DNA from: Candidatus Methanosphaera massiliense
Lineage (GTDB): Archaea; Methanobacteriota; Methanobacteria; Methanobacteriales; Methanobacteriaceae
DNA: 64,000 nt
Direction: 5' to 3'
Assembly: GCF_028890305.1 (NCBI RefSeq)
Contig: NZ_JARBXM010000001.1
Coordinates: forward strand, 188,501 to 252,500
Part shown: in pieces, positions 7,433-8,768 of the stretch
Numbering within the stretch: the first letter of the stretch is position 1
Layout of the letters: the number at the start of each line of letters is the position of its first letter
Notes under the pieces: model-generated
Seen by the model: only the letters and a program-made list of their open reading frames with translations
Databases searched by the model: none
What the model was told of the DNA's origin: nothing
Position numbers and translations under genes: made by a program

Positions 7433-7495
7433 TTAGCCTCAGATCGCCCATCATTCATCATCATATCAGAGCTCATAGGGTTCATCATAGGCTAT
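7433..7495 (-). ncRNA. C/D box small guide RNA (archaeal sRNA)
   Basis: Read on the minus strand, a GC-richer patch in an AT-rich gap has every element of an archaeal methylation guide. There is a 5' TAGCC paired with a 3' GGCTA terminal stem, box C (ATGATGA), a 12-base guide (ACCCTATGAGCT), box D' (CTGA), a 4-base spacer, box C' (ATGATGA), a second 12-base guide (ATGATGGGCGAT) and box D (CTGA). Both spacers are exactly 12 bases, the canonical archaeal length. It lies 46 bases past the pan stop. A minus-strand TATA run at 7527-7537 could drive it independently, or it may be processed from the pan 3' end. Such RNAs assemble with L7Ae, Nop5 and fibrillarin to direct 2'-O-methylation. Confidence 0.9.
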
Positions 7496-7526: not shown

Positions 7527-7537
7527 TATTATATAAC
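7527..7537 (-). promoter_or_regulatory. Candidate TATA box for the C/D box sRNA
   Basis: On the minus strand this reads GTTATATAATA. Its centre lies roughly 35-40 bases before the sRNA stem, so initiation 25 bases downstream would give a 5' end close to the start of the mature RNA. It sits between the pan stop codon and the sRNA. Confidence 0.45.
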
Positions 7538-7541
7538 ATGA

Positions 7542-8768
7542 TTAGTTATACATTACTCCTGCTTCTTTAGATAACTCATTTCTGTTTTTATTTTTGTTCA
7601 TCACTTTATCTAATGCATCTTCAAAGTTTTTAGATGATACACTGTGATGATTTTCTCTTATTGCGAACATACCTGCTTCTGTACATATTGATTTAAGGTC
7701 TGCTCCTGATGCCGTTTTTGCTTCAGTTGCAATTTTATTAAGATCAACATCAGAATCTAAGGACATGTTTTTGGTGTGTATTTTAAGAATTTCAAGTTTT
7801 CCTTCTTCATCAGGAACTGGAACTTCTATAATACGATCAAATCTTCCAGGTCTTACTAATGCTGGGTCTAATATATCAGGCCTATTAGTTGCTGCAATTA
7901 TACCAACATTTCCACGGGATTCAAATCCATCCATTTCTGCTAGTAATTGCATGAGTGTTCTTTGAACTTCACGATCTCCACTTGTAGATCCTTGTAATCT
8001 TTTAGCTGCTATAGCATCAATTTCATCTATAAATATTATGGCTGGTGCTTTTTCTTTAGCTAATTCAAATACTCCTCTTACTAGACGTGATCCTTCTCCT
8101 ATGTATTTTTTTACAAATTCAGATGCTACAATTTTTATGAAAGTTGCATTTGTTTCATGTGCGACTGCTTTTGCTAGGAGAGTTTTTCCTGTACCTGGTG
8201 GACCATAGAATAATACACCTTTAGGTGGTGTAATACCAACTTCTTTGAATATTTCTGGATTTTTTAATGGTAGTTCTACTGTTTCAACAGTTTCACGTAT
8301 TTGTTTTTTTAATCCACCAATGTCATCATAGCTTATATTTGGTTTTTCATCTATTTCCATTCCAGATACTAATGGATCTTTTTCGGAAGTTATAATATCA
8401 ACTATGCTGAATGTTTGTTGATTTAGTGCTACTCGTGATCCAATTTCTACTTTATCACTGTCTTTATCAGAGTATCTTAGTAAAAATGATGGTCCTGTGC
8501 TACTTTTTACTACTACTTGGTTGTTATCTAGTATTTCAGAGACAGTTGCTAGTACTAATGGTGGTGTTCTGAAACGATTTATTTCATTTTTTAATGATTT
8601 AACTTCACGGTCTAATCTGAGATTCTCGTTTTCTAGTAATACTTTGTCTTTTTCTAATTTTCTTACTTCCCATGTTAGATTACGTTCGATTGCCTCATGT
8701 TTATCTAATATGTTTGTTATTTCACGGTCTTCTTCTTCAACTGTGTTTAAAGGTGATGATTCTTCCAT
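7542..8768 (-). CDS. pan: Proteasome-activating nucleotidase (PAN)
   Basis: AAA+ ATPase that unfolds substrates and feeds the 20S proteasome; 408 residues. In order: an N-terminal coiled coil (about residues 20-65), an OB domain, then the AAA module with GPPGTGKT (Walker A), IIFIDEIDA (Walker B), the second-region-of-homology stretch [19 protein letters not shown], and a C-terminal helical domain. The protein ends in MYN, which fits the HbYX docking motif that opens the alpha-ring gate. The ATG at 8768 follows AGGAGGT, which lies in a possible hairpin. The alpha subunit gene psmA is elsewhere in the window. Confidence 0.97.

Follow-up and report, generated by a model that had tools for sequence, protein, structure and literature searches.

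A dual-guide box C/D sRNA gene beside pan in Candidatus Methanosphaera massiliense, with elongator pre-tRNA-Met as predicted target of one guide

A 64,000-nucleotide stretch of the Candidatus Methanosphaera massiliense genome (hereafter the window) carries, on its minus strand from 7494 to 7434, what the available tests support as a box C/D guide RNA gene. It is very probable that this gene specifies a dual-guide sRNA derived from the transcript of pan, in which the D' guide is directed to C34 of elongator pre-tRNA-Met and the D guide most likely to C2558 of 23S rRNA. The anatomy of the gene, its conservation, the covariation of its closing stem, the complementarity of its guides and the matching differences between guide and tRNA in two distant lineages are described first, and the model that they suggest is then set beside known guide RNAs.

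Structure of the gene

An earlier note on this DNA, written from the letters of the window, had proposed a complete C/D box methylation guide RNA adjoining pan. This proposal is borne out by the boxes, their spacing, a co-varying stem, nearly frozen guides and a complementary target that fits the N+5 position. As the note had described, boxes C, D', C' and D lie in that order on the minus strand between 7494 and 7434, each of the two guides is exactly 12 bases long (D' guide, 7481-7470; D guide, 7454-7443) and a 5-bp stem, TAGCC/GGCTA, closes the RNA (7494-7490 with 7438-7434). The strand reads, in full, TAGCC-T-ATGATGA-ACCCTATGAGCT-CTGA-TATG-ATGATGA-ATGATGGGCGAT-CTGA-GGCTA, and the features are as follows.

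7434..7494, minus: box C/D sRNA gene, about 61 nt
7490..7494, minus: closing stem, 5' arm TAGCC; covaries with the 3' arm (76 distinct rows)
7482..7488, minus: box C, ATGATGA
7470..7481, minus: D' guide, ACCCTATGAGCT; pairs with elongator pre-tRNA-Met GGCTCATA/GGGT, the stroke marking the exon-intron junction; N+5 is C34
7466..7469, minus: box D', CTGA
7462..7465, minus: D'-C' spacer, TATG; 3-7 nt in relatives
7455..7461, minus: box C', ATGATGA
7443..7454, minus: D guide, ATGATGGGCGAT; best match 23S helix 92, TTCGCCCATTAA; N+5 is E. coli C2558
7439..7442, minus: box D, CTGA
7434..7438, minus: closing stem, 3' arm GGCTA; covaries with the 5' arm
7528..7536, minus: TATA-like sequence, possible own promoter; not conserved in place
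7542..8768, minus: pan, proteasome-activating nucleotidase, 408 aa; upstream of the sRNA and its likely source transcript

These are the features of an archaeal C/D RNA: RUGAUGA, CUGA, RUGAUGA and CUGA occur in order within about 50-65 nt, with two guides in the range of 10-12 nt (here 12 + 12), a short D'-C' spacer (4 nt), a closing stem beside the C/D k-turn and at least nine guide pairs that cover N+5 in rRNA or tRNA. When the window was searched on both strands with a strict C-D'-C'-D pattern a single match was obtained, and 100 first-order Markov resamplings of the same 64 kb gave none; a looser pattern, asking for a stem of at least 3 bp, gave one match in the window and one across the 100 resamplings. 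The fold of the sRNA is also better than that of its shuffles (z -3.1; 2 of 200 shuffles as good).

The note had warned of a 29-codon open frame on the plus strand that could mislead annotation. An open frame is there, although it measures 28 codons from stop to stop. Over the sRNA, no plus-strand ORF that opens with a usual start codon reaches 20 aa, and the minus strand has one of 21 aa. A coding reading of the plus strand was rejected on the first of these grounds and on the length of the D'-C' spacer, which ranges over 3-7 nt in relatives, so that there is no conserved frame.

Conservation among relatives

Homologues were sought by BLAST of 63 nt in 60 genomes, 49 of them from the same class, and were found in 47 of those 49, own genome included (E 3.5e-15 or better). 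The same-class genomes without a strong match are G011, which is 70% complete, and G028, which is in 490 contigs. Absence of the boxes from related genomes was one of two findings that the earlier note had named as telling against it, and the pattern TGATGANNNNTATGAGCNCTGA, in which the four letters beside box C are free, is instead present in 139 of the 151 phylum genomes, among them 90 of the 91 good ones; its reversed control matched no phylum genome. In this phylum search, the free letters are ACCC, except in G024 and G048 where they are TCCC.

As 76 distinct rows were chosen by a pattern that fixes most guide letters, guide conservation is judged instead on 46 BLAST rows, which leave out G040 and in which four rows with C before the core were read by eye. 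Here, the D' guide is ACCCTATGAGCT in 42 rows and differs by a single edge letter in the other four, while its core CCCTATGAGC is present in all 46. The core of the D guide is TGATGGGCGA in 45 rows and TGATGGGCGC in one. The guides are therefore nearly frozen, whereas the flanks and spacer vary, the latter taking 20 forms of 3-7 nt in the 76 distinct rows.

The closing stem was evaluated in the same 76 rows, against shuffles that ignore the relatedness of those rows: at stem positions 2, 4, 5 and 6 the observed pairing is 1.00, 0.97, 0.96 and 0.86, which exceeds in each case the best of 500 shuffles (0.97, 0.89, 0.74 and 0.64). Positions 1 and 3 hardly vary, and past position 6 pairing is no higher than in the shuffles. 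This pattern of conservation, together with the co-varying stem, fits a guide RNA and does not fit a peptide.

At least 120 stretches in named genomes matched the guide pattern, and records titled Methanobrevibacter and Methanosphaera are among those with the gene. Box C stands directly before the guide in 16 of the 80 matches listed (L106-L185), 15 of which also carry the second guide; L158, a Thermoplasmata contig among the 80 matches listed, has box C before the guide but is without the second one. When 14 genomes were searched with a one-mismatch pattern, four matched (G048, G049, G050 and G059) and none was found in G051-G058, G011 or G028. A Cm34 guide of this form is therefore not universal.

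The D' guide and elongator tRNA-Met

The sequence GCTCATAGGG occurs only twice in the unmasked part of own genome, once as the complement of the sRNA and once in tRNA-Met (C1:847508-847517, minus strand). The second site lies inside a tRNA-Met(CAT) gene called by ARAGORN, in which a 35-nt intron follows the A after the anticodon. The D' guide forms 12 of 12 pairs, one of them G-U, with this pre-tRNA (GGCTCATA/GGGT), spanning the exon-intron junction. The fifth guide base upstream of D' faces C34, the first base of the anticodon (N+5), and four of the twelve pairs fall on the intron letters GGGT; N+5 on C34 of the elongator form and a pairing that includes intron letters are the marks of a tRNA-Met C34 guide. 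Only 8 pairs form with the spliced molecule, and likewise with the initiator or with the other CAT tRNA.

Shuffled guides were used as a control. Against a tRNA set of 35 distinct own sequences (the genome has 42 Rfam matches, and tRNA-Trp is absent from the set), none of 400 shuffled D' guides formed ten core pairs of Watson-Crick type, and 5 of them reached ten when at most one G-U was allowed. Against rRNA, the corresponding counts were 5 and 11 of 400. In the three rRNA pieces scanned the real guide nowhere reaches nine core pairs, and the partial 16S locus L263 offers nine pairs with several G-U. An rRNA target for it was rejected. Elongator pre-tRNA-Met, with C34 as the site, is thus supported as the predicted target of the D' guide.

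The core GCTCATAGGG is kept in all 44 tRNA-Met loci of the class that were examined. In G025, G030 and G035, each in several contigs, the sRNA is present and no intron-bearing tRNA-Met was found. Outside the class, G052 and G056 have GCTCATAGGG in tRNA-Met, and the one-mismatch pattern found no guide in either. The GG at the start of the intron can also be required by the bulge-helix-bulge splice motif.

As a separate observation, the 35-nt intron itself is much alike in 30 loci (L226-L255; the own copy is L105:440-549, minus strand), its interior GGGTATTAAGCAgtGCTCTGACTTTTTCCTGGGAT included. The alikeness of the interior seems to exceed what the splice motif needs.

Two distant lineages show matching differences in guide and tRNA. 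G059 has the guide CGCTTATGAGCT and a tRNA-Met reading CGCTCATA/AGCC; G050 has the guide CGATTATGAGTG and a tRNA reading GACTCATAATCT. Each guide forms 10 of 10 core pairs with the tRNA of its own genome and 8-9, G-U counted, with tRNAs of the other lineages, while the own-type guide forms 8 pairs with the G059 tRNA and 6 with that of G050 (G-U counted); as the search fixed the letters TATGAG, the comparison bears on about four letters per lineage. G049 has an own-type guide and a tRNA that matches it. The G050 tRNA (L343, about 1501-1603, minus) is recognised as a tRNA by Rfam though not by ARAGORN; it appears to read CAT and to have its intron before the anticodon rather than at 37/38. The G050 guide follows exon letters of this tRNA, and action before splicing is therefore not general. 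The last box of the G050 sRNA is TTGA.

The D guide and 23S rRNA

In the unmasked own genome, TCGCCCATYA is found in the complement of the gene and in own 23S rRNA at C1:972660, and nowhere else. The match lies on the 3' side of helix 92 and comprises ten core pairs including one G-U, with no pair at guide position 1 in this genome. When the A-loop is taken as U2552 to C2556, N+5 of the D guide corresponds to E. coli C2558. The complementarity alone is suggestive, and weight is added by the edge letters of the guide, since those that vary among relatives are the ones least paired with helix 92. Helix 92, with C2558 as the site, is perhaps the target of the D guide, a weaker case than that of the D' guide.

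An alternative is that the function of the D' guide holds while the D guide has another target (16S, a masked part of 23S or another RNA), or has none at all and persists for structural reasons. We consider this unlikely, but deserving of weight. The pairing is imperfect, and is equalled in rRNA by 6 of 400 shuffled D guides and in tRNAs by 2 of 400. In addition, guide position 10 is an invariant G that stands opposite U and is never A in the 46 BLAST rows. Masking covers own 16S and much of own 23S and could hide another target; the 23S family search of own genome gave no match, though part of its 23S was later found, only one of 20 genomes around G037 has part of its 23S, and the 16S family search found any 16S in 8 of 119 genomes. 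Against this alternative, the ten letters TGATGGGCGA, which are also present in G049 and G054, all pair with helix 92 where the edge letters vary, and the helix 92 match is unique in the unmasked genome. On the rRNA strand, the 16S of three relatives (L258, L260 and L261) pairs with no more than 9 of the 10 core positions. A tRNA target for the D guide was rejected, the best having 9 core pairs with several G-U.

Position beside pan and origin of the RNA

The protein encoded upstream is identified as pan by NCBIfam TIGR01242 (612.5 bits, cut-off 500), and the sRNA begins 47 nt past its stop codon on the same strand. The arrangement recurs in relatives: of 77 distinct loci, 76 have pan directly upstream in the same orientation, and in the single exception the contig extends just 78 nt ahead of the gene. 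From the pan stop to the core of box C there are 13 to 288 nt, and in 31 of the 76 loci 30 nt or fewer, a gap that could hardly hold a promoter unless it reached into the pan coding sequence.

The earlier note had offered two origins, a promoter of the gene's own and processing from the pan transcript. Its TATA candidate was located (TTATATAAT, 7536-7528), and a promoter at this site is possible in this genome; in 18 same-genus upstream regions read by eye, no TATA-like box stands at a fixed place. According to a review, most archaeal C/D genes are without a promoter of their own and are cut from longer transcripts (PMC7994747). This pattern and the short gaps favour processing, which therefore fits the relatives better, and the 3' part of the pan transcript probably yields the sRNA on cleavage.

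Constant company with pan could also suggest a structure or terminator in the 3' untranslated region of pan in place of a separate RNA. This is very improbable. Although the position downstream of pan is nearly invariable, the guides match tRNA-Met, and G049 carries both guides, swapped, at a place where the neighbouring ORFs are unlike pan by eye.

Rfam searches

The earlier note had also suggested a covariance search with an archaeal C/D model. At gathering score, Rfam gave no C/D match in the window, only four tRNAs; below it, the best families are indeed archaeal C/D sRNAs, namely sR1 with 35.5 bits (cut-off 45) and sR2 with 34.9 (cut-off 42). These scores deny membership of those two families, not of the box C/D class. 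For family sR49 (RF01303) the score is 22.4 bits (gathering score 50), and for sR41 (RF01126) the window gives 22.8 bits (gathering score 54), although one guide core is in common with sR41. That the gene is decayed or silent, or a chance match, is scarcely credible: the lack of an Rfam C/D family at gathering score would agree with it, but the guides are nearly frozen beside changing flanks, the stem co-varies and the shuffled windows yielded no strict match.

A model for the action of the sRNA

Were the gene expressed, as we infer it to be, its RNA would probably be released from the 3' part of the pan transcript and, in keeping with what is established for the class, associate with L7Ae, Nop5 and fibrillarin. 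The D' guide would then span the 5' exon-intron junction of elongator tRNA-Met while this is still unspliced, and direct 2'-O-methylation of the wobble base C34. With four of the twelve pairs contributed by the intron, and only 8 pairs available in the spliced elongator and the two other CAT tRNAs, methylation would be expected to precede splicing and to be confined to the elongator. The D guide would most likely direct methylation at the equivalent of 23S C2558, beside the A-loop.

A bolder extension is tentative, and we think it somewhat less likely to hold than to fail. It states that the intron is kept in the class as an address label read by the sRNA, that C34 methylation acts as a checkpoint before splicing and that a single RNA ties the C34 mark to one at the side of the A-loop. 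The anticodon loops of the elongator, the initiator and the other CAT tRNA are identical over the reach of the guide, so that the intron alone would let the guide tell elongator tRNA-Met apart. The case makes it testable whether a tRNA intron is a specificity tag for wobble methylation of tRNA-Met.

Relation to known guide RNAs

Guides for Cm34 of tRNA-Met are already known in other archaea, and the present gene has a guide pair and a position of its own. The C/D RNA sR-tMet of Haloferax volcanii is reported to guide Cm34 of elongator pre-tRNA-Met (Joardar et al. 2011; PMC4033218), the same 2'-O-methylation as is predicted here; the two are compared by description, and the title of that paper speaks of 'unique features'. 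Pyrococcus sR49 is a predicted guide for Cm34 of tRNA-Met; Grosjean et al. 2008 report 18 candidate tRNA-Met Cm34 guides and describe a pre-tRNA-Met intron that partly pairs with the guide, so that methylation precedes splicing (PMC2584109). The predicted site and a part for the intron in the pairing are common to these guides and the present sRNA. The Rfam model named sR49 shows no such guide in its printed consensus, and names may differ between sources.

The nearest known sequence found is Rfam sR41 (RF01126) of Thermococcales. The D guide of its consensus, GCCCUAUGAGCG, holds the ten core letters CCCUAUGAGC of the present D' guide, and two further loci of the 80 listed matches, L118 (4889-4942, minus) and L167 (1826-1879, plus), carry CCCTATGAGC next to D and pass the sR41 gathering score. 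In Thermococcales the tRNA-Met-type guide stands next to D and the other guide differs; here, it stands next to D'. Pyrococcus sR41 has been called an orphan that could modify G1950 (PMC2584109). Its D guide may have C34 of pre-tRNA-Met as target, and the present case thereby suggests a target for the second guide of sR41.

A further parallel is the C/D RNA encoded in the intron of tRNA-Trp, which likewise guides Cm34 (and Um39) on a pre-tRNA; that guide sits in the intron of its own target, whereas the present one is a separate gene beside pan. For the D guide, archaeal A-loop C/D guides target U2552 and C2556 in helix 92 of 23S (PMC4644070), and the present site, which would be C2558, has this helix in common with them. 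Neither 2558 nor 2832, the alignment number of the site by count, is in the main text of that paper.

The consequence of the mark has been described elsewhere. According to one source, Cm34 limits decoding to codons that end in G, and the same source places Cm34 of M. maripaludis and P. furiosus on a tRNA labelled initiator tRNA-Met (PMC7668247); this label does not sit easily with a mark on the elongator only. A review reports that box C/D guide sequences show accelerated evolution, against which two guides nearly frozen over a class stand out. A search of titles and abstracts found no description of this RNA in Methanobacteria, and the present analysis names an RNA gene that is easy to overlook in the genomes of methanogens, including those whose records bear the titles Methanobrevibacter and Methanosphaera.

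Relatives with a different arrangement of guides

Two loci outside the main pattern are recorded here. In G049 (L030, about 1577-1626) both guides are swapped, with TGATGGGCGAT before D' and ACCCTATGAGCT before D, as after a circular rearrangement, and the neighbouring ORFs include no obvious pan by eye. A circular rearrangement that repositions two guides has been proposed for Methanopyrus sR39/119 and sR88 (PMC4644070), and repositioned guides are common to both cases. The Methanopyrus event is within one species and one guide has decayed, whereas in G049, a distant lineage, both cores are intact. Finally, G054 (L056, about 1015-1070) has a C/D-like RNA with only the TGATGGGCGA guide in common, its other guide being TAGGGAGAGTT.
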